From contig JAISER010000056.1 of the NCBI GenBank assembly GCA_031263985.1, forward strand, positions 1 to 38,880: a DNA stretch of 38,880 bases, written 5' to 3'. A model generated the notes under the pieces. That model had not been told where the DNA came from. It saw only the letters and a program-made list of their open reading frames with translations, and ran no database searches. This stretch comes from Clostridiales bacterium. GTDB taxonomy: Bacteria; Bacillota; Clostridia; Lachnospirales; JAISER01. Made by a program: the position numbers and the translations under genes. Positions within the stretch are counted from its first letter, which is position 1, and every line of letters starts with the position of its first letter. Shown here in pieces: positions 22,460 to 33,507 of this stretch.

Positions 22460-22954
22460 TCACGCCGAAACCCATTCTATATCAGCGCCAATAGGACAAT
22501 AGCATGTCAAAACTACATTTTCAGCGATATTTTTCGTAACGAGCTTCATATCGCGTAACGTCACCACATCGTCCGCGTTCGCTATGTTAACATATCCTAT
22601 GTCGTTTCTTCTGTTATGCGCTTTGAACAGGCATTCCTTCCGCGTCCAAGCGTATGTAGCGTATTTATGCGGATCGTCGTACAGCAGAATCTTTCTTATA
22701 TCATTTGCCGGCAGGTAGAACCGCATTTTTTTGACCAGCCGCTCCAATCCTCCGCTATAGTTTATCGTCTCGATGTCGCAGCCTATAAGCGATGAAGCCG
22801 CGCAAACGGCGGCGTACGCTTTGGTATAGCTTTTTGATATGTATGTACAATTACCTCGGTCTTCGGATATGCGCTTAATAAGATCGTTAGCCGCGCTTCT
22901 CCGGGCGCTAACATTATTCGCGCCGACGGATCTATAATAAACATATACGTTCAT
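22460..22954 (-). CDS. Sfp-type 4'-phosphopantetheinyl transferase
   Basis: The enzyme converts apo-ACP to holo-ACP using coenzyme A. The two signature motifs are present: IGCDIETI (the GVDIE metal-binding motif, about residue 57) and WTRKECLFKA (the WxxKEA motif, about 104). At 164 residues it is shorter than most Sfp proteins and lacks much of the N-terminal half. AAGGAA lies about nine bases before the ATG. It ends the eleven-gene minus-strand cluster and would activate the ACP at 30418. The same cluster holding its own PPTase and ACP argues for a pathway separate from housekeeping fatty acid synthesis. Confidence 0.82.
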   Translation of the reverse strand: MNVYVYYRSVGANNVSARRSAANDLIKRISEDRGNCTYISKSYTKAYAAVCAASSLIGCDIETINYSGGLERLVKKMRFYLPANDIRKILLYDDPHKYATYAWTRKECLFKAHNRRNDIGYVNIANADDVVTLRDMKLVTKNIAENVVLTCYCPIGADIEWVSA

Positions 22955-23056
22955 CAGCTAAATTCCTTCAATGTATTTATATTACACGCGGGAAAATAAC
23001 GGCGTTTCAATAACCTCCGCCCGCCGCCCGCCACCGCGGTTGCCAGCGGCTTGATT

Positions 23057-23800
23057 TTAGAGATCGGCGCCTCCCGCGGCGTCCGCGATTTTAGCCGATC
23101 CCACCGCGTCATCGGCGACCGGCCGATGAGGGTTATCGGCCGGTTCAACCGGCGGATCGTCCGCAGGGCGGCTGTCTCCGCTTCGCGCGTTGCCCAATTC
23201 GCTTCCAGCTACCGACTCTTCGCTTTCGCCCCGCTCGCTTTGTTTGCGCTTGAGACTGCGCCTAACCATCTCCTGCTCCACAAGACGCTTGTTGGCGAAA
23301 TCGTGTAATTCAAGCCCTTCCTCCGTAAAAAACTGGTGGATCTCTTCCTCTCGCTTTTCGCCGTACTCCTTAAAGCTGGTAGACGCTATTTCAAAATCTT
23401 CCCACTGATACATACGCCATGTCTTCATATTCATTTCCGCCAATTTAGCCTTGCACGTCGCCATGAGTTCGCCTGTTTTCTTATTGTATAACTTTTGTCT
23501 AAACTCATATGAGCAATACATCTTGTGCGGAATCATGGAGGTCTTTATGATCAGAACATCGCCCAGTTTGCATGACCTTAAATATTTACATTCGCAATAT
23601 AACGTAGCGCTGACGATATCATCGGAAAACATGTCGTCAATTTTTTTCCCGACCTTAGCGGCATAGTCAAACCGTCCCACCTCAAACCATACGTAATAAT
23701 CGGCGTTATTCGCTATGCCGTAAGGGTCGGTTTCAGCGAATCTGACCGTTATTTCCGTTTCAACCTTGTCAACCAACTGTCTTTTCATAACAGCGGCCAA
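23057..23800 (-). CDS. Hotdog acyl thioesterase (4HBT type) with charged C-terminal tail
   Basis: Residues about 14-145 form a 4-hydroxybenzoyl-CoA thioesterase-like hotdog domain, with the catalytic Asp in AETDPYGIANNADYYVWFE. The remaining 100 residues are helical and then low-complexity, rich in E, R, S, P and D. Such enzymes release acyl chains from CoA or ACP. The start is TTG at 23800: AAAGGAGG lies nine bases before it, whereas the in-frame ATG four codons later is too far. In another frame the tail region carries an open frame ending in TGATG with the PPTase start. This is one of two hotdog thioesterases at opposite ends of the cluster. Confidence 0.82.
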   Translation of the reverse strand: MAAVMKRQLVDKVETEITVRFAETDPYGIANNADYYVWFEVGRFDYAAKVGKKIDDMFSDDIVSATLYCECKYLRSCKLGDVLIIKTSMIPHKMYCSYEFRQKLYNKKTGELMATCKAKLAEMNMKTWRMYQWEDFEIASTSFKEYGEKREEEIHQFFTEEGLELHDFANKRLVEQEMVRRSLKRKQSERGESEESVAGSELGNARSGDSRPADDPPVEPADNPHRPVADDAVGSAKIADAAGGADL

Positions 23801-23833
23801 AACAAGCGCCTCCTTTCCAAACTTTCTCTATCT

Positions 23834-26272
23834 TCAATCAATGCTGGTAGCGATAACTCCGGCGTAAGATCCTCCTAACATACCCGCTGACATAGCGGCG
23901 CAACGTATGCGCCTGCCGTTCAATTCGCGTTTCACAAGGCTCTTATATTCTTCACGGGCGTTCGAAAGATCGCCCGGGTTCGGCGCCTCGCCATATTCCA
24001 TACTGTATAAGCAATTTAACATCGAATAAAGGCCCAAAGAACCTGTAGGCGTGCCTACGTATCTGGCCGTAGAACGCGCCACCGTATTTTCTCCCGTATA
24101 TTTGCGCACAATATCCAATTCTTTTTCATCAAGCGATTTAATGCCATAGGAAGTCATCGCGTAATAATCGATAACAGGGTTGTTGGCCATGTTCATCGCC
24201 AGCTTAAAGCCCTCGTCCCACCTGGATGACGTATCGTCAATTCCGCCCAGGTCGGAGTTGTCGCCGTTAAAGAAATAGCCGTCTATCTTTCCGTAAACTT
24301 TCGCGCCGCGCTCAAGAGCGAGATCCTTTTTCTCCAGAATCAACGATACTGAGCCTTCCGACAATATCATGCCCGACGCGTCACTGTCGAACGCCAACGC
24401 GCCGTTTTTAGTTAAAAGCCCTAACTTTTCGTTGGTGATCTGTAACATCTCGTCCCATTCATCCGCGGCGATCACTATTATAGCGTCGGCTTGGTCGCTT
24501 TTCAGAAGCTGGACGGCGTAAATAATGCCGGCCGCGCCTGACACTCCGCCCGACGTAATCGCGGAAATCGGACCCCTAATATTATTCGCTATTGAAAATT
24601 GCCCCGGAGTGGCTATGAACACGCTGTTCGTGAACAAGTCCGGCGCTATGCCGCTTACGCCGACTTTTAAGATTTGCTCGTTGATAGTGTTAATCGTAGC
24701 GAAAGGACCTGTGCCCGTCGCGTAGACCACGCCTATACGCGAACAGTTTTGCGGCGTAATTTTCAACTTCGCGTCCAATATGGCCTGTTTGCCGCTTGTC
24801 ATGGCCAATTTCGTAATCTTATCAAGTCTACGCAACTTAGCGGCCGGAATGTAATTTTTAAAGAATTTATCGTCCAGTTCCGGCAGTTTGCCAATGTAAG
24901 GGGTTTTAAATCCTTTTTCCCATTCAGTGACATCCACCTTTTCGATACAACTTACGCCGTCCTTAAACGTCTGATAAAGTTCCGACAGATTTCTGCCCCC
25001 AACGCCGACGCAACCCACTCCCGTCACGACCGCGTCGATCTCGGGATATTGATCTATATCGCGTTTGGCGTATTTTGAAAGGATTATCGTGCAATTATTT
25101 CCGCCGAAAGCGAACGAATTAGACAAGACGGCGTTCACTTCCGCATCGATAGCCTTGTTCGGCGCGTGGTTTATGTCACCCTTAGGCGGTTTACGGAAAT
25201 TAGTCGTAGGGGGTATCTTCCCCTCTTCTATGGACATCAGTGAAAAGGCGGCTTCGATAGCGCCCGCCGCGCCCATGCAGTGGCCTATCATCGATTTGTT
25301 GCTTATAAGCGGTATCGAGGTATGCTCACCCACGATCAATTTCCACGACTTTTTTTCGGCCATATCGTTAGCGGGCGTTCCAGTTCCGTGACCGTTAACG
25401 TAATCTATATCCTTAGCCTTGAATCCACTGTTCTTAAGCGCGTTTTTCATACAACGATAAGCGCCCTGTCCGTTTGGATCCGGCGCGGTGGCGTGATACG
25501 CGTCCGCCGACAGACTATAGCCTCGTAATTCGGCGACGATGTCCGCGTTCCGCCTTTTTGCGCTCTCATCGCTTTCCAGAATAAAGAAAGCCGCGCCTTC
25601 GCCTATGTTTATTCCCGAACTGGCGGAATAAGGCTGGCATGGCGACCTGGAAATAGCGCCCAAACACTTAAAGCCCGCGAATGAAAACGGCGACAACGGA
25701 TCCACCCCGCCCGCCAGCACAATGTCGCACAAACCGTCATTAATGATATCGTGAGCTATACCCAGCGCGTTCGCGCCCGAGGCGCACGCCGTGGAAACGA
25801 CGAAACGCGTTCCGTTAAAGCCATATCTTGTCGCGACTATATCGGCCACGGCGCTAAGGGGATATTGCGCCAAAGACACCGGATCCGCGTTGTCAACGCC
25901 GTTCTCAATGCATTCCTTCTGGAACTGACTACCTACCGCTATACCGCCCATAGCCGTCCCGACAACGACGCCAAGCCGCAGCGAGTCAAAATCTTTGGCG
26001 TTTATCTTCGCTTGCGCTATACATTCGTTAGCGGCTTGAAGCGCCAAAACCATCACACGATCAGGCTTTATGCCGCGCTCTTTAAAAAAGGGGTCCTCTT
26101 CCAGTTCAAAATTTATCGCTCCGAACGGAGCCGTAGCGCTCCCGTCCTTATAATCCATAGTTACGTCGGAAATCCCGCCTTTACCGGCGAAAAGCCTAGC
26201 CTTGTTCTCTTCCTTGTTCTTGCCAAGCGAACTTAAAACGCCATAGCCCGTGATAACTATCTGTTTTTTCAT
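23834..26272 (-). CDS. Fused ketosynthase and chain-length-factor-like protein (KS-KS')
   Basis: Two complete KAS II-type domains in one 812-residue chain. Domain 1 (1-402) has the full condensing triad: Cys163 in STACASGANALG, His295 in GHGTGTP and His331 in MIGHCMGAAGA. Domain 2 (about 410-812) keeps the fold but reads AITSGGVSGAAG where the Cys should be. It also lacks the GHGTGT and GHxxGAAG histidines, so it cannot condense. That is the arrangement of type II polyketide KS/CLF pairs, in which the inactive partner sets chain length, but here both are one polypeptide. GGAG precedes the ATG. The upstream 123-base gap can fold around GCGGCC and GGCCGC. Confidence 0.88.
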   Translation of the reverse strand: MKKQIVITGYGVLSSLGKNKEENKARLFAGKGGISDVTMDYKDGSATAPFGAINFELEEDPFFKERGIKPDRVMVLALQAANECIAQAKINAKDFDSLRLGVVVGTAMGGIAVGSQFQKECIENGVDNADPVSLAQYPLSAVADIVATRYGFNGTRFVVSTACASGANALGIAHDIINDGLCDIVLAGGVDPLSPFSFAGFKCLGAISRSPCQPYSASSGINIGEGAAFFILESDESAKRRNADIVAELRGYSLSADAYHATAPDPNGQGAYRCMKNALKNSGFKAKDIDYVNGHGTGTPANDMAEKKSWKLIVGEHTSIPLISNKSMIGHCMGAAGAIEAAFSLMSIEEGKIPPTTNFRKPPKGDINHAPNKAIDAEVNAVLSNSFAFGGNNCTIILSKYAKRDIDQYPEIDAVVTGVGCVGVGGRNLSELYQTFKDGVSCIEKVDVTEWEKGFKTPYIGKLPELDDKFFKNYIPAAKLRRLDKITKLAMTSGKQAILDAKLKITPQNCSRIGVVYATGTGPFATINTINEQILKVGVSGIAPDLFTNSVFIATPGQFSIANNIRGPISAITSGGVSGAAGIIYAVQLLKSDQADAIIVIAADEWDEMLQITNEKLGLLTKNGALAFDSDASGMILSEGSVSLILEKKDLALERGAKVYGKIDGYFFNGDNSDLGGIDDTSSRWDEGFKLAMNMANNPVIDYYAMTSYGIKSLDEKELDIVRKYTGENTVARSTARYVGTPTGSLGLYSMLNCLYSMEYGEAPNPGDLSNAREEYKSLVKRELNGRRIRCAAMSAGMLGGSYAGVIATSID

Positions 26273-26395
26273 TAAAATAGCTCCCAGATTAATTTTTTAA
26301 ACGCGAACTCCGTCCTCAGCCCATAACGACAGATTCTTTTTGCGGCCTCCCATTAGGAAGGCGACCTCCAAACGGCCGCCCTCATGACGTAACGG

Positions 26396-27670
26396 CTATT
26401 CCATTTTCTGATCCCAACTCAACGGCCTGACTATCGGAGCGGAAAACGTGTTTACGCTGACATCCCGTCCGTCCTTACGCCGAGCGAGCATCTGAAACCC
26501 TGACTGCGCGTAGGGCTGGTCAATGACCGCCACTCCTATCACCTTGCCCACTTTCGCGGAATAGAGCGAATAAACGACTTCTCCGATCTTCTCCGGCTCC
26601 ACCTGTTCATTAGGAATATACGGCTCTTCCGCCTGTTCTTGCGTCTGTTCCTGAACCTGTTCTTCGGAAACCGGCTCAGCGGCTTCGCCGTCGTCCGCGA
26701 AAAACGAATCGTCGTTATCCTCTTCGTCCTCCACAACGACTTCGACCTCTATATTCCTGATAAACACTTCAAGCCCCGGCTCTAAAACGGCTTCGTCCTC
26801 AGCGTCGCATATAAAGCCGACCGTGCTCTTTTCCACTCCGGCTTCTAAAATCTCACGCACTTTTTCAAAACCGATGTATTCTTCCTTATCATAACGTATA
26901 AACCACTGCTGACCCAGTTCCATCAGGTTCCCGAACCGTTTCGTTTCTCTCAGAAAATTCGGCTGACGAATCTCCAACATAGCTATTTCCAGACAGTCCA
27001 AGCCGCACTCTCTCATAGGGAACTCTTTTTCTTCGTTATCCTTCATGGCGAGGAACGCCTTATAAATCTTGCCGCTCGTTTCCACGTCCGATATTATAGT
27101 GTAACCGTACTCGCTGGTGCGCCCTACGCGAATGACCGTAACCGGACGCTCCTCAAGATCCACGACTTGCATCGTGTGCAAAGCTATATTTTCTATTTCG
27201 ACGCTAAACAATTCTTTTACGACTTTCCAAGACTTGCACCCTTCGATAGCCAGCACGCCATGACTGCCGCTCAAGTCCTCCACTTCAACCTCATACTCCG
27301 GCGCCTTTTCCTGAAGCCATTTAAGCGCCTTGTCCGCATGTTCCCATGTCGCCAATATTATAAAATCATCTTCACGGCGCAATATAAAGACGCTGGCGAC
27401 GAGGTTGGCCTCTTCGTTCAAAAAATAACATTCAGTTATGCTGCCGATGTTCAAAAAACCTATGTCTTTCGTAGCGAGCCGCTCTAAAAACGCGTCCGCG
27501 TTTTCACCTTTTACGGAATACAAACCATAGCTTCCGCAGTCGTAGATCGTCGAGCCTTCGCGCAAAGCTTTATATTCTTCAGGCAAATCGCCGAAATTTT
27601 TAACCAAGGTCCTATTGTCTATGGTTGTGAATTCCGCTGTTTCAGCGTAAAGTTCGCTGTTTATGTTCAT
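26396..27670 (-). CDS. GcvT-like folate-binding protein with an acidic insert
   Basis: The protein resembles the aminomethyltransferase (T protein) of glycine cleavage, which binds tetrahydrofolate. Matching blocks are LREGSTIYDCGSYGLYSVKG, AFLERLATKDIG, RVGRTSEYGYTI, and the barrel domain near the end (GKVIGVAVIDQPYAQ). Between the second and third domains, about residues 320-375, is a Glu/Asp/Gln-rich insert. No gcvH or gcvP is near, so it is unlikely to serve glycine cleavage. Related proteins demethylate or move one-carbon units for many substrates. Within an acyl-chain cluster a one-carbon modification is possible but is inference. GGAG lies seven bases before the ATG. Confidence 0.75.
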   Translation of the reverse strand: MNINSELYAETAEFTTIDNRTLVKNFGDLPEEYKALREGSTIYDCGSYGLYSVKGENADAFLERLATKDIGFLNIGSITECYFLNEEANLVASVFILRREDDFIILATWEHADKALKWLQEKAPEYEVEVEDLSGSHGVLAIEGCKSWKVVKELFSVEIENIALHTMQVVDLEERPVTVIRVGRTSEYGYTIISDVETSGKIYKAFLAMKDNEEKEFPMRECGLDCLEIAMLEIRQPNFLRETKRFGNLMELGQQWFIRYDKEEYIGFEKVREILEAGVEKSTVGFICDAEDEAVLEPGLEVFIRNIEVEVVVEDEEDNDDSFFADDGEAAEPVSEEQVQEQTQEQAEEPYIPNEQVEPEKIGEVVYSLYSAKVGKVIGVAVIDQPYAQSGFQMLARRKDGRDVSVNTFSAPIVRPLSWDQKME

Positions 27671-27688
27671 AGCGCATCTCCTAAATCT

Positions 27689-28573
27689 TTAAATTTCTTC
27701 CCTTTTTCTCTGTAAGTTCAAAATCATCAAACAAAGAGCGACCAGCCCTACGACCGCCGCGTAAGCTAAAGAGAGCGTATCCGATATCTCTTTATCTGAA
27801 AATTTCAAAACTATGCCGTATATCGACTTATATTCCTCGCCAAAGATAGACGGCACGCCGGAAAAGGCCGTGGCAAGCGCGTCTTTCGTAAACACCTCGC
27901 GGAAGACCTTCGCCACGTTCGCCGACGGAAACGCAGCCAAAACATTTTGAACAGTTGGACTAAGTATGCCTATCGGAACATAAAGCCCGTTTATAAAGCC
28001 TACCGTCGTGCCTATGATTATGCTGGCCATTGAAAACGCGCCGACCGTCCCGAAAAATGAACATACCAAACCCATTGCGAAAGAATTTATTAGAGACGAA
28101 AGCAAAATTAGTCCGAACCCTTGGGCCAGTTGCATGACCGTCAGGCTGTAACCCGTCATCAGATATATTAATATAGGGTATATCACAAGCGGGATAAGGC
28201 TTATGAACACGCCTATCAAAAACGCCGCGACAATGTGCGAGAAAGGATAAACCCACGCCTTGATCGGCGCGCTTTTAAAATCCATTATAACGCTTCTTTC
28301 GCGATCCAAAACCATGCCGCCGAAACCGCCCAGCACGCTTGTAATCGTCGTGATGGACAAAAGCCCTCCCAGTATCCAGCTATGCACGAGGTACGTTACG
28401 GCTTCGGGCGTTATAATGTCGCCCACCCGTTTAGTTATCTCGTCGTTTTGCATCTTCGCAAGAAACACGATGTACAAAATAATCACTATCAGAGCGGAAA
28501 GCAACGAGAAAAAAACGGCTGTTTTATCTCTGAAATAAATCCTTAGATTCCGGGATATAAGATGTTTTACCAT
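27689..28573 (-). CDS. ABC-2 type transporter permease
   Basis: The 294-residue protein has six hydrophobic segments (for example at about 20-40, 60-85, 100-130, 140-165, 170-200 and 265-285) and the pattern of DrrB-type exporters. GGGGAG lies five bases before the ATG. With the ATPase upstream (147-base gap) it forms an export pump; in type II polyketide clusters such pumps carry the product out. Confidence 0.88.
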   Translation of the reverse strand: MVKHLISRNLRIYFRDKTAVFFSLLSALIVIILYIVFLAKMQNDEITKRVGDIITPEAVTYLVHSWILGGLLSITTITSVLGGFGGMVLDRERSVIMDFKSAPIKAWVYPFSHIVAAFLIGVFISLIPLVIYPILIYLMTGYSLTVMQLAQGFGLILLSSLINSFAMGLVCSFFGTVGAFSMASIIIGTTVGFINGLYVPIGILSPTVQNVLAAFPSANVAKVFREVFTKDALATAFSGVPSIFGEEYKSIYGIVLKFSDKEISDTLSLAYAAVVGLVALCLMILNLQRKREEI

Positions 28574-28720
28574 TTATTCTCCCCTACTTTTTATCAATAT
28601 TTATTCGCGCGTTTGCAAGACGCCGTCTCAAACCCCTCACCGAAACCCTTTTGCCTCACTCCAGTTCGCGGCGAAACTAACGCCTTTTAACACGGCTTTC
28701 ACGACGCGTAACCGCGCGCG

Positions 28721-29701
28721 TTATTTTCTTTTAATCAGCTTTTTCAGTTTTTCCTTGCCCGCCGTTCTCTCGTCGCTTTTCGCCAACTCGTTTTCAGCGT
28801 TCGTAATGTTTATGAAAACGTCGTCCATATTTCCATGTATCGCTTCAAACGATCTTATATACGGTTTAAGGTCGTTAAGAACAGCGACGGCGTGCTGCGG
28901 ATCTCTTATCTTTATAATAACGATTTCCTTGTCGGAATCGTATTCATACTCGACGCCGCCCGCGTTTTTAAGGTAGTTAAGCACGTGCCTGTCCGGCTCA
29001 TAGATCTTAATCATATCGTACGTATACGCCTCTTTCAGCTCATTCGGCGTACCGCTCGCGATTATTTCGCCGTTCTGTATAATAGCGATTTTATCGGCGT
29101 TCGACGCTTCCTCCATATAATGAGTGGTAAGGAAGACGGTCATGCTAAGCTCTTTTTGCATTTCGGACACCGTATTCCATATGGACACGCGGTTCGCCGG
29201 GTCAAGCCCCGTAGTAGGCTCGTCCAAAAAGAGTATTTCCGGACTGTTTATTAAAGCGCGCGCTATATCCGCGCGGCGCTTCTGTCCGCCCGACAGCTTT
29301 TCATAGCGCTGATCCAAAAAATCGACGCAATCGGTTATCCTAGCCACTTCATCTATTCTTTGAGTAATCGCGGCGGCGTTTAACCCGTACATGCTTCCGC
29401 GCACGCGCATATTTTCTCTTACGGAAAGAAGACCGTCGAGCACGCCGTTTTGAAATACCGCGCCTATGCTCTTTCTTATCTTGTCATCGTTCTTTCCAAG
29501 CTCATATCCGTCCACAATCACTCTACCGGACGTCTTTTTTATAAGCGTAGTAAGTATATTGATCGTCGTCGTCTTGCCCGCTCCGTTTGTGCCAAGAAAG
29601 GCGAACAAGCTCCCTTTCTCAACGTCAAACGACACGCCGTTCACGGCTTTTACGTTAGAGCCGTAAGTTTTTGTCAAGTCATAAACTTCTACACTGTTCA
29701 T
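28721..29701 (-). CDS. ABC transporter ATP-binding protein, DrrA type
   Basis: The nucleotide-binding domain is complete: Walker A GTNGAGKTTT (about 36-45), a Q-loop in GAVFQNGVLDGLL, signature LSGGQKRR, Walker B ILFLDEPTTGLD and switch His in TTHYMEE. The C-terminal 100 residues match the extra domain of DrrA/CcmA-like export ATPases. It pairs with the ABC-2 permease next to it. The sequence does not show the exported substrate; the surrounding genes suggest an acyl or polyketide product. Confidence 0.92.
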   Translation of the reverse strand: MNSVEVYDLTKTYGSNVKAVNGVSFDVEKGSLFAFLGTNGAGKTTTINILTTLIKKTSGRVIVDGYELGKNDDKIRKSIGAVFQNGVLDGLLSVRENMRVRGSMYGLNAAAITQRIDEVARITDCVDFLDQRYEKLSGGQKRRADIARALINSPEILFLDEPTTGLDPANRVSIWNTVSEMQKELSMTVFLTTHYMEEASNADKIAIIQNGEIIASGTPNELKEAYTYDMIKIYEPDRHVLNYLKNAGGVEYEYDSDKEIVIIKIRDPQHAVAVLNDLKPYIRSFEAIHGNMDDVFINITNAENELAKSDERTAGKEKLKKLIKRK

Positions 29702-29721
29702 ATATTCACCCGCAATTTATT

Positions 29722-30378
29722 CTATCTTCTTTCAGACAGACCTATCACGCCTTTGGCCACCAAATCGTTGCCGACGCGAACTTCGGAATCTATTTGCGTA
29801 AGAGGACCCATCGCGCCCTTCAGCTTCACCCTTATGCGCATAGTGTCGCCGGGACGTATAGGACGCATAAACTTCAAATTCGTAGATATAAGAAACCCGA
29901 CATGCTCGGCCGGCGACTTAAAGTCTTCGGGCAGCTCAAACCCCTCGGGCAGCGCGACGTTTATGCCGTTCATCCGCGCTTCGACAATCGCTTTAATCTC
30001 TTTTTCGGCCTTAGCTTTGGCGGCCGCTTTCGTCTGTTCGTCCGGCTCGGACTCGCCTTTCGCCTCCGCTTCGGCCCTGGCCTTCGCTTCCGCTATGGCA
30101 GTCGCGGCGACGGTCGCCTCCGCGACGAATTTTTCCATTTGACTTATAAACTTGGCGGCCAGCATTACAGCCGCGGTCTGCGCTATAGACTCTATCGTAA
30201 GCGCTCCGGGAAATATAGGCTCCGTCGGGAAGTGCCCGTTGAAAAACGGCTCGTCTATCGTAACGTTTTTTATGCCGACGGCGCTTATGCCCGGCGTGCA
30301 ATCCACCACCTTGTCTATAAGTAAAAACGGCGCCCTGTGAGGCAAAAGTTGGTATATCTTCTGTATGTTAAAATCCAT
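29722..30378 (-). CDS. FabZ-like 3-hydroxyacyl-ACP dehydratase with a charged insert
   Basis: It removes water from a 3-hydroxyacyl-ACP to give the trans-2-enoyl chain. The opening [14 protein letters not shown] is typical FabZ. The active-site His49 ([12 protein letters not shown]) and Glu63 (TIESIAQ) are present. Family members have about 145 residues; this one has 218 because of an Ala/Lys/Glu-rich insert (about 84-140), probably a helix, between the central helix and the later strands. GGAGGA lies nine bases before the ATG. It sits between the ACP and the ABC ATPase. Confidence 0.88.
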
Positions 30379-30417
30379 ATTCGCTGATCCTCCGATAAAA
30401 ACGCCTTTATCGACGCG

Positions 30418-30936
30418 TTAATTTTCGTCTTCGTCAAACTCGTCTTCGCTCATGATGTCTTCAAAGCTTTCGTAATCAGCGTCCACTATATCGCTGAAGT
30501 CGCCGCCGCCGCGCATCTTCATAAGCTCGTCATGATCATATTCATCCAAATGCTCGTAGTATTCGTCCGGAGGCCCTTCTCCGCGCTCCCTGCCCATATT
30601 GTTCCACGCTTCGCGCATCTGCTTTCTAAGCTCGGGGTCTCTGGCCTGCGCGTCCTTAACCGTCTGCACATAGTCGGCTATCGTGTTTATGGAGCTGTAA
30701 ATGGCGGTGTTGTCATCGTTAACGGCCACTTCAAACGCGTCGTACAAACCGACGGATATATCAAGCGCGTCTATCGAGTCAAGCTCAAGCCCGCGCCCAA
30801 AAATAGGCTGGTCGTTAGTAATGAATTCCGGCGTCACTTCAAGCGACAACTGATCTATAATCATTTTTTTAATTTCGTCGCACAGATCCCTGCGCTCTTC
30901 CGCCAATTGGCGTATTCTTTTTTTGACAGTCTTCAT
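30418..30936 (-). CDS. Acyl carrier protein with long acidic C-terminal tail
   Basis: Residues about 15-95 form the ACP domain. The phosphopantetheine attachment Ser54 lies in LELDSIDALDI, followed by the usual acidic helix. The next 75 residues are unusual for an ACP: Asp/Glu/Tyr-rich and ending EDEFDEDEN, giving 172 residues instead of about 80. The tail could mediate contact with basic surfaces of partner enzymes. Gene order (FabG, ACP, FabZ) and the in-cluster PPTase indicate it carries the growing chain. Confidence 0.88.
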   Translation of the reverse strand: MKTVKKRIRQLAEERRDLCDEIKKMIIDQLSLEVTPEFITNDQPIFGRGLELDSIDALDISVGLYDAFEVAVNDDNTAIYSSINTIADYVQTVKDAQARDPELRKQMREAWNNMGRERGEGPPDEYYEHLDEYDHDELMKMRGGGDFSDIVDADYESFEDIMSEDEFDEDEN

Positions 30937-30968
30937 AGCGAATGTTTTTTCTCCTTAATAGTCAATTA

Positions 30969-31730
30969 TCAACCGTTAATTAAACCGCCGTCAGCCGTCA
31001 ACACTTTACCCGTTATATAGCTCGCCTTCGAGGAAAGCAAAAACGCGACGGCGTTAGCTATCTCACTCGCGTCTCCAAAGCGCTTCAGCGGTATTAAGTC
31101 TAAGAACTGTTCCTTAAGCCTCTGCATCACCATCGCTATCATGTCCGTTTCGACGAAACCGGGCGCTACGACGTTGCATCTGACGCCTTTGTCCGCGTAT
31201 TCCTTAGCTATAACCTTTGAAAAAGCGATTACGCCGCCCTTGGAAGCCGCGTAGTTAGCTTGACCTGGGTGTCCGGATATGCCTGTCGTTGACGCGATAT
31301 TCACTATAGAGCCTCCGTTCTGTCTCTTAGAGCACATGAACATCAAGGCCCTTTTCGTGACGTTAAACACGCCGAAAAGGTTGGTCTCGAGCACCGTTCT
31401 GAATTTCTCCTCACCCATTGTAAGCATGTACGCGTCAGCTATAACGCCCGCGTTGTTTACCAAAAGATCAAGCCGCCCCATTTCGCTTTTAATATCCTTA
31501 AACATCTCGTCAACGGCCAAAGGACTGCGAACGTCCGCTTTAACGGCGATGGCCTTAACCCCATAAGATTTAATCTCCTCGCAAGTCTTAAGCGCCGCCT
31601 CATCTTTTTTCGCGTAGTTCACGACTACGTTGACCCCTTCTCTGCCAAGCTCAAGAGCGATAGCTCTGCCTATGCCGCGAGCTCCCCCGGTGACCAGAGC
31701 GACTTTTCCTTCTTCAAACAGCTTCCACAT
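30969..31730 (-). CDS. FabG-like 3-oxoacyl-ACP reductase
   Basis: A short-chain dehydrogenase that reduces 3-ketoacyl-ACP with NADPH. The cofactor motif is TGGARGIGRAIA (about 15-26). NNAGV follows, and the catalytic Ser, Tyr and Lys are in NIASTTG and YAASKGG (Tyr about 160). The C-terminal PGFVETDM and DGGLING are also present. Length, 253 residues, is normal. The start lies six bases after the fabD-like gene stop, with GAGG in the end of that gene, so translation is coupled. Confidence 0.92.
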   Translation of the reverse strand: MWKLFEEGKVALVTGGARGIGRAIALELGREGVNVVVNYAKKDEAALKTCEEIKSYGVKAIAVKADVRSPLAVDEMFKDIKSEMGRLDLLVNNAGVIADAYMLTMGEEKFRTVLETNLFGVFNVTKRALMFMCSKRQNGGSIVNIASTTGISGHPGQANYAASKGGVIAFSKVIAKEYADKGVRCNVVAPGFVETDMIAMVMQRLKEQFLDLIPLKRFGDASEIANAVAFLLSSKASYITGKVLTADGGLING

Positions 31731-31736
31731 AATCAG

Positions 31737-32720
31737 TTACCTCGCATTTAAAATAGTTTGCAACTTTTTCACGCGGTTCATGACTTTCCTGCCGTCCTCG
31801 GCGGCCGTGACGTTAAAGTTCGCGCCCATGTTCCTGAAAAACCCGGAAAGCGTGTGCCCCGGGCCTACTTCAAATATATTTTTTTCATCCTTGATGTCAA
31901 ATATGCGCATAATCGTCTTTGACCACTTAACCGGCGAACGACAATGATTCAACAATTCCTCACGCAAGTCGCTTCCATTATAATAATCTCCAAAACCATT
32001 TAAAATAACCGGAATTTTCGGCTCACGCACAGTTATCCCATTCAAATGCTCCGCGAACTCCGGAATCATTTCATCCATAAGCTTAGTGTGAAAAGCCTGT
32101 CCTACAGGCAAAACGGAAACCGCGCAGTTTGCGCGGCGCTCTTCCATAAAGGCCATAAATTTTTTTACGCCGGCGCGCGTCCCTCCAACGACTATTTGTT
32201 TATCTGAGTTGTAGAGCGCTACATCTATGTAAAATTTCTCTTTCCTTGAAAACAACTCGCATATGTACTCTATTTCTTCAGCGTTTATCGTAACCGGCGA
32301 CTTTACCGCGCATAGACAGCCTTCTTTCGATATTTGGCTCATCAGGGCCGCTCGTCGCTTTATAATCCGGCTAACGTCATACAAGTCAAAGCAGCCGGCC
32401 TCGTATAAAGCGGCGTATTGCCCCGCGCTGTGTCCGGCGACTATATCCGCTCGCGCGCCAAGCCCTTTTATAACTGAAAGATACCCTATATCCGCGGCGA
32501 ACATAACTATCTGCGTAAATTCCGTCCGATTAAGTTCAGTCATGGGAGCGTTTGACATAAAATCCTCTAAGTCAAAACCGACGGCTTCCGATATGATTTG
32601 AAAATCTTCTTTGTAATAATGCTCTCCGTAGGTTTTAAGGCTTTTAATTATCTCCGTCGACTGAGCTCCCTGACCGGGGAAAACGAATATGTTTTTCATG
32701 CCAAACTTATATCCCTCCAT
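31737..32720 (-). CDS. FabD-like malonyl-CoA:ACP acyltransferase
   Basis: It loads extender units onto the ACP. The opening IFVFPGQGAQ and the nucleophile Ser98 in GHSAGQYAALYEAG are family features (GHSLGE is usual). The Arg region RRAALMSQISKEG and the catalytic His in GQAFHTKLMDEM are also present. Length is about 320, normal. The first Met at 32720 is doubtful; Met8 at 32699 fits homologues better, with GGAGGG 13 bases before it. The extender specificity (malonyl or other) cannot be fixed by eye. Confidence 0.9.
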   Translation of the reverse strand: MEGYKFGMKNIFVFPGQGAQSTEIIKSLKTYGEHYYKEDFQIISEAVGFDLEDFMSNAPMTELNRTEFTQIVMFAADIGYLSVIKGLGARADIVAGHSAGQYAALYEAGCFDLYDVSRIIKRRAALMSQISKEGCLCAVKSPVTINAEEIEYICELFSRKEKFYIDVALYNSDKQIVVGGTRAGVKKFMAFMEERRANCAVSVLPVGQAFHTKLMDEMIPEFAEHLNGITVREPKIPVILNGFGDYYNGSDLREELLNHCRSPVKWSKTIMRIFDIKDEKNIFEVGPGHTLSGFFRNMGANFNVTAAEDGRKVMNRVKKLQTILNAR

Positions 32721-32791
32721 CTTCCTCTTTGAGCGTATATTGCGATAATTTTTTCCTCACGCGCTTCAAGCCTGACGCCGTTTTTAAGCCC

Positions 32792-32809
32792 TGAGAGCGC
32801 GCGCTCTCA
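32792..32809. repeat. Perfect 18-base palindrome between thioesterase and fabD-like genes
   Basis: TGAGAGCGCGCGCTCTCA is fully self-complementary. It lies in the 217-base gap 32721-32937, which holds no gene. On the minus strand it is followed by a short AAAAA stretch rather than T, so it is more likely a partial-terminator, processing or protein-binding site than a full terminator. Confidence 0.5.
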
Positions 32810-32937
32810 TCCAGGCGTAAGAAAATGGCGCCCCGCCGTTATCAACCTCGATCCAACAAAAAATCAAAGGATGACTCGCCATCGATTAAAGGCGGTTCCC
32901 TTGCGCTCACCCCTCCCCTAAATTCCTCCGCTCCGCC

Positions 32938-33351
32938 TTAACCGTTCAAATAAGCCGCGATTATCTCTTTAAGTCTCTCATCAAGACCGATCATCAGACC
33001 TCGGGTTTTTGAAACCGTCCCGATAGCGGTCGTTCCTTCCGCGTATTTTGAACCGCGTTCCCCCGTCACTATATGAGTGAACATAAGCTTGGCCACGACG
33101 GGAGGCTCTAATTTTGTTTTAATAAGTATCTTCGTGCCGTTCTTGATAGGCACGGTAAACTTGCATTTGGACTCCAGAACAGGAAAATATATGTCCTCGT
33201 TTTCGCAATACGCGTCAATAAGGCCCATTTGCCTGGATATGACGAACCTCGCGTCCTCAAACCATCGAAAATAATTCGAATTGTGGACGTGTCCGGATGC
33301 GTCGCATTCCCGGAACAACACAGTATGATTCAAAACATGCCATTTGTTCAT
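32938..33351 (-). CDS. Hotdog acyl-CoA/ACP thioesterase, YbgC/FadM type
   Basis: The 137-residue protein is a single 4HBT hotdog domain. The catalytic Asp is in RECDASGHVHNSNYFRWFEDAR, and strands and helix follow the normal order. Such enzymes hydrolyse acyl thioesters, or act as cyclases in a few polyketide pathways. GGAG lies three bases before the ATG. It is the first gene after the cluster promoter (33479-33507), with a leader of about 120 bases. Confidence 0.88.
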   Translation of the reverse strand: MNKWHVLNHTVLFRECDASGHVHNSNYFRWFEDARFVISRQMGLIDAYCENEDIYFPVLESKCKFTVPIKNGTKILIKTKLEPPVVAKLMFTHIVTGERGSKYAEGTTAIGTVSKTRGLMIGLDERLKEIIAAYLNG

Positions 33352-33478: not shown

Positions 33479-33507
33479 ATTATACCATCCTCGATGGGAC
33501 TCGTCAA
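33479..33507 (-). promoter_or_regulatory. Consensus sigma-A promoter of the acyl-chain cluster
   Basis: On the minus strand TTGACG (33507-33502) is followed after 17 bases by TATAAT (33484-33479). Start of transcription would be near 33472. The leader to 33351 is AT-rich with repeated TTTATT/AATAAA words. No other equally good promoter was noticed within the cluster, so this one may drive all eleven genes. Confidence 0.8.

Follow-up and report, generated by a model that had tools for sequence, protein, structure and literature searches.

What product is assembled by the eleven genes that run in one direction through part of the window (the whole stretch of 38,880 nucleotides analysed here), and do these genes serve housekeeping fatty acid synthesis? 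Reading of the open frames and a domain search of the window placed them in one minus-strand run from 33351 to 22460 (Table 1), and domain and motif analysis bore out the common direction and the gene identities listed in an initial annotation of this DNA. The neighbours on either side lie on the plus strand, so that the run is bounded. An Rfam search of the window gave no match. The initial annotation had also set the genes behind one consensus promoter. The best promoter-like site of the run is found 128 bases ahead of the first start codon; control from that site alone can only be presumed, since consensus matches are common in the region (26 found against 14.4 ± 4.0 expected) and the intergenic gaps within the run, which include 217, 147, 123 and 102 bases, leave room for others.

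Table 1. Features of the eleven-gene run in window coordinates, listed in the direction of transcription.
Feature	Position	Strand	Evidence and remarks
Promoter-like site TTGACG-17-TATAAT, TG before -10 (extended -10)	33479..33507	-	consensus match only
4HBT hotdog thioesterase 1 (TE1), YbgC/FadM-like	32938..33351	-	ECD motif, domain search
FabD-like malonyl/acyl transferase	31737..32720	-	GHSAG, AFHT
FabG-like ketoreductase (SDR)	30969..31730	-	YAASK
Acyl carrier protein (ACP)	30418..30936	-	DSI; nearest NCBIfam match PRK09184-type; low-complexity segment 30418-30650
FabZ-like dehydratase	29722..30378	-	GHFP, ESIAQ; long Ala/Lys/Glu-rich insertion; low-complexity segment 29890-30160
ABC transporter ATPase	28721..29701	-	DrrA-like C-terminal domain
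ABC-2 type membrane permease	27689..28573	-	domain search
GcvT-like protein	26396..27670	-	PF01571; without folate-contact residues; low-complexity segment 26610-26770
Fused gene KS-KS' (KS-CLF), 812 aa	23834-26272	-	domains and residues
KS, N-terminal half of fused gene	25080..26272	-	Cys163/His295/His331
CLF-like KS', C-terminal half of fused gene	23834..25079 (boundary approximate)	-	no Cys, no His
4HBT hotdog thioesterase 2 (TE2)	23057..23800	-	ETD motif; C-terminal tail 104 aa; low-complexity segment 23057-23370
4'-phosphopantetheinyl transferase (PPTase), ACPS superfamily	22460..22954	-	domain and motifs

The FabD-like, FabG-like, FabZ-like and ACP sequences all carry the motifs given in Table 1, the PPTase keeps GCDIE and TRKE..K, and the ABC ATPase has Walker A, LSGG and FLDEP. 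The FabG-like SDR scores highest as a 3-oxoacyl-ACP reductase, and the ketoreductase (KR) and dehydratase (DH) of the cluster score as ordinary FabG and FabZ. In the fused gene, the first KS domain holds Lys326 beside its Cys and two His, while in the second domain Gly replaces the Cys and both His are missing, leaving none of the four residues; the description of a KS fused to a Cys-less KS was correct. A domain and NCBIfam search detected no enoyl reductase (FabI, FabK, FabL or FabV) among the eleven genes, in agreement with the initial annotation. The best family of the ACP is the PRK09184 type, which we take to be related to aryl polyene clusters.

Low-complexity stretches of 52-104 aa, acidic or rich in Ala/Lys/Glu, occur as tails or insertions in the ACP, FabZ-like, GcvT-like and TE2 proteins; in the relatives compared they are missing or much shorter. 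The acidic C-terminal tail of the ACP (77 aa) does not occur in relatives, and the FabZ-like insertion falls in a loop that is variable among them. AlphaFold models of KS-KS' and of the GcvT-like protein, built from three-sequence alignments, had pLDDT values of 34 and 50 and were unusable.

The genome (2.1 Mb in 124 contigs, about 90% complete) encodes a separate, complete fab operon on contig C113, with FabH, FabK, FabD, FabG, FabF, FabZ and acetyl-CoA carboxylase genes. In a KS tree of 49 rows, from which Iga11 and L124 are absent, the housekeeping FabF group had support of 99/96 and the cluster KS fell outside it, within a 13-row group (99/91) shared with ApeO of aryl polyene synthesis and with KS domains from further KS-CLF fusions. 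In this tree comparison, which the initial annotation had proposed, the nearer grouping of the KS with ApeO and with a KS-CLF fusion from Streptomyces has modest support (83/80). The KS'/CLF halves formed one group mirroring the KS tree, and the CLFs of loci L073 and L074 branched outside the GcvT-associated CLF group. Resolution was weak in the trees of FabG, FabZ, FabD and ACP; the cluster copies of FabG and FabZ were not recovered as one clade, which points to a possible exchange of these components. The separate operon with FabK and the position of the KS outside the FabF group argue that the cluster does not serve housekeeping fatty acid synthesis, as the initial annotation had held. A housekeeping system would be the only or main fab operon, with a KS in FabF and an enoyl reductase, and the cluster shows none of these features.

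The cluster is not limited to this genome. A contig scan with the single KS-KS' protein recovered no relatives, and a scan with a GcvT alignment recovered two. The same core (FabD, FabG, ACP, FabZ, GcvT-like and fused KS-CLF) was present in the same order in ten other loci that were read: those of Priestia megaterium plasmid pBM500, two Ruminiclostridium genomes (one being R. papyrosolvens C7), Candidatus Allocopromorpha excrementigallinarum, and genomes G096, G953, G1515, G1271, G1511 and G1238. The order TE-FabD-FabG-ACP-FabZ-...-GcvT-(KS-CLF) is kept over several classes or orders of Bacillota, and sharing of both order and content by ten other loci indicates that the eleven-gene cluster is not a chance assembly. 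The initial annotation had proposed to look for conserved co-occurrence around the KS-KS' and GcvT anchors, and had also named two findings that would tell against its reading, namely a KS within FabF in a genome with no other fab operon and a fabI or fabK gene joined to the cluster in relatives. Neither was made, and none of the ten other loci contained an enoyl reductase.

Around this core the loci vary. A PPTase gene is present in the Clostridia loci, G096, G953 and pBM500, and was not identified in the stretches read of G1515, G1271, G1511 and G1238. Most loci have exporter genes of varying type (ABC or MFS), that of pBM500 being an MFS transporter; near the G953 locus lies an AMP-ligase, and accBCDA adjoins the locus of G096. 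Glycosyltransferases and flavodoxin-like/FMN_red proteins occur in the Ruminiclostridium and Allocopromorpha loci. The loci of G096, G1515, G1271 and G1511 each encode a GNAT-like protein (534 to 1081 residues), joined in G1515 and G1511 by a DUF6365 protein. Related clusters from the class of G953 (L121, 4391-8707; L123, 7535-16058) encode GNAT proteins that are about 1000 aa long, and two of the related clusters also have DUF6365; the GNAT could pass the acyl chain to an amine.

Between the two Ruminiclostridium copies, dN/dS was 0.05 for KS, 0.09 for CLF, 0.21 for GcvT and 0.05-0.08 for FabD, FabG, ACP and FabZ, low values which indicate that the genes are kept by purifying selection. The family has a patchy distribution across Bacillota, with members in clostridia of the chicken gut, in clostridia that degrade cellulose and on plasmids of Priestia. 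Own genome aside, a GcvT match above 300 bits was found in 2 of 391 genomes of the class sample, and the phylum sample gave 1 of 398; the class of G953 gave 7 of 389 genomes, with G1307 among them lacking GcvT, and reading covered all of these but G1249.

The GcvT-like protein is the sole GCV_T match in the genome, in which, at about 90% completeness, neither the P nor the H protein of glycine cleavage was found. It shares the fold and overall sequence of the glycine cleavage T-protein (1WOO/1YX2) and differs from it in its folate site. When ten cluster proteins were aligned to Thermotoga maritima GcvT (1WOO), Asp96, Asn112, Glu195 and Arg227 (T. maritima numbering) were kept in none of them, and Tyr83 and Tyr188 were also lost in most. 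Generic homologues of other genomes in most cases retain nearly all of the contact residues. In GcvT, these residues bind folate. The ten proteins form one clade, separate from GcvT, with support of 100/99, and phage records with GcvT matches are only about 23% identical. Where the initial annotation listed the GcvT-like protein as one item among others, its presence was confirmed, and judged by sequence it is in fact a family-specific component and marker of the cluster that has lost its folate site. The cluster would on this evidence hold two "pseudo-enzymes", the CLF half and the GcvT-like protein. These findings also bear on the idea of a duplicated housekeeping fatty acid operon with a relocated GcvT. 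Such an origin would account for the Fab-like character of the majority of the enzymes, yet it is already contradicted by the full fab operon elsewhere and by the position of the KS, as well as by this solitary, folate-site-dead GcvT homologue and the patchy distribution, and we regard it as extremely improbable.

In type II PKS systems, the ACP is converted to its holo form by a PPTase and loaded with malonate, the chain is extended by KS-CLF, reduced by KR and dehydrated by DH, and where no enoyl reductase (ER) acts the double bonds stay. By this logic, the PPTase of the cluster would activate the ACP, the FabD-like transferase would load malonate, and the fused KS-CLF would carry out iterative decarboxylative condensations, each followed by FabG-like reduction and FabZ-like dehydration, so that every cycle would leave a trans-enoyl unit. 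As the cluster encodes no enoyl reductase, these double bonds would be retained, and the outcome would be a short polyunsaturated acyl chain or conjugated polyene, its length governed by the CLF half. Release would fall to a hotdog thioesterase and export to the ABC-2 system. The starter is likely acetate or malonate, since the cluster contains no starter-activating ligase or aryl-starter gene. The unsaturated product and its export, as put forward in the initial annotation, fit the gene content, from which we infer every catalytic step, the polyene and its export. The motifs, the KS outside FabF, the conserved core order and the lack of an ER in any locus speak for this scheme, and we consider it reasonably probable that the run forms a self-contained unit of highly reducing type II PKS-like character, belonging to a new "GcvT-KS/CLF" subfamily, and that it yields a short polyene or polyunsaturated acyl compound for export.

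Against a polyene, the FabK encoded elsewhere could act in trans, and the flavodoxin-like/FMN_red proteins of the Ruminiclostridium and Allocopromorpha loci might reduce something. A dedicated acyl synthase that borrows the housekeeping FabK would instead supply an exported lipid or glycolipid with a special acyl chain, whether saturated, beta-hydroxy or mono-unsaturated; such a role would suit the glycosyltransferase genes of the same loci, the GNAT proteins of four others and the ordinary FabG and FabZ scores of KR and DH. We hold this to be rather unlikely, given that a segregated pathway is implied by the presence of an ACP, a PPTase and a Cys-less CLF half in the cluster itself, that no relative has an ER and that the KS lies outside FabF.

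In the polyene scheme, the GcvT-like protein would have a folate-independent accessory role in chain assembly or release. It is conceivable, with the balance slightly against, that an aminomethyltransferase fold without its folate site was recruited once in the family ancestor as a new PKS component, and that it acts on the unsaturated chain, either ACP-bound or after release (by cyclising, isomerising or off-loading it, for instance), towards a product class unknown from Bacillota. The literature searched, in which subscription papers were mostly outside the scope, yielded no paper tying GcvT to a KS/CLF cluster.

Compared with known systems, the cluster resembles highly reducing type II PKSs (such as ishigamide Iga11-Iga12, PDB 6KXD-6KXF; Streptomyces plasmid loci L070/L071) in the sequence features compared, sharing a KS with Cys-His-His and a Cys-less CLF, discrete ACP, KR, DH and FabD, no ER, and a KS that groups outside FabF with KSs of the highly reducing and aryl polyene types. 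L070 and L071 also have a fused KS-CLF, with the KS in the same broad clade, but no GcvT; the window cluster differs in having only one KS-CLF, an in-cluster PPTase and the GcvT-like protein. The initial annotation saw no matching known pathway, and no characterised match appeared in the literature searched (again mostly without subscription papers), but the machinery itself is a variant of this known kind. The GcvT gene was absent from the stretches read of five KS-CLF-fusion loci (L070, L071, L073, L074 and L124), in which the CLF is more distant or the profile score lower. L073, L074 and L124 are further uncharacterised, highly reducing type II PKS-like loci from other Bacillota; they combine the fusion with FabG and FabD, and L073 and L124 also have a FabZ-like protein and carboxylase genes.

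The aryl polyene cluster of E. coli CFT073 (ape, L112) has in common a KS of the ApeO clade, KR, DH, TE, ACP, a transporter and the unsaturated logic. Compared to L112, the window cluster has no aryl starter supply (ammonia lyase, ligase), no MMPL/LolA export and no methyltransferase, its KS and CLF are fused and it contains the GcvT-like protein; an aryl polyene assignment was rejected. Celluxanthene of cellulolytic clostridia is likewise a polyene from anaerobic clostridia, but it is made by the iterative type I PKS CexF with KASIII enzymes (PMC12144888), an unrelated architecture. The cispentacin pathway (AmcB-H, PMC10698177) shares an ACP, a hotdog enzyme and, in AmcF-AmcG, a KS with a Cys-less partner. 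Weak NCBIfam matches of AmcB, AmcE and AmcF type raise the prospect of a one-extension cyclising pathway in the style of cispentacin or coronafacic acid, with the KS' half as cyclisation factor and the GcvT-like protein helping to shape the ring. We judge it improbable, as all of these matches lie under the family cut-offs, the housekeeping FabF matches AmcF too, and the AmcH-type 2-oxoglutarate ligase is missing from the window cluster.

The conserved core defines a type II PKS family of compact build, which occurs in Clostridia of the gut, in cellulolytic ones, in Priestia and in other Bacillota, and of which we found no description; the P. megaterium pBM500 papers found concern, in the parts available, the exosporium. 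Because members occur in named strains (R. papyrosolvens C7 and P. megaterium QM B1551 pBM500), the product can be sought directly, and the role of a folate-site-dead GcvT homologue beside a ketosynthase is a question for enzymology.

The same genome contains a second type II PKS-like cluster on contig C60 (L075, 479-18579), with an ACP, three KS/CLF pairs, a double FabA/FabZ protein, FabG, FabH and an enoyl-CoA hydratase, together with four HGD-D proteins, relatives of 2-hydroxyacyl-CoA dehydratases and double-cubane reductases, and an activase of the BcrAD/BadFG type. The joining of a PKS to a radical dehydratase/reductase system looks unusual, and a literature search found no paper on it. 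On contig C26, an open frame of 3134 aa contains three PP-binding domains and probably encodes a nonribosomal peptide synthetase.
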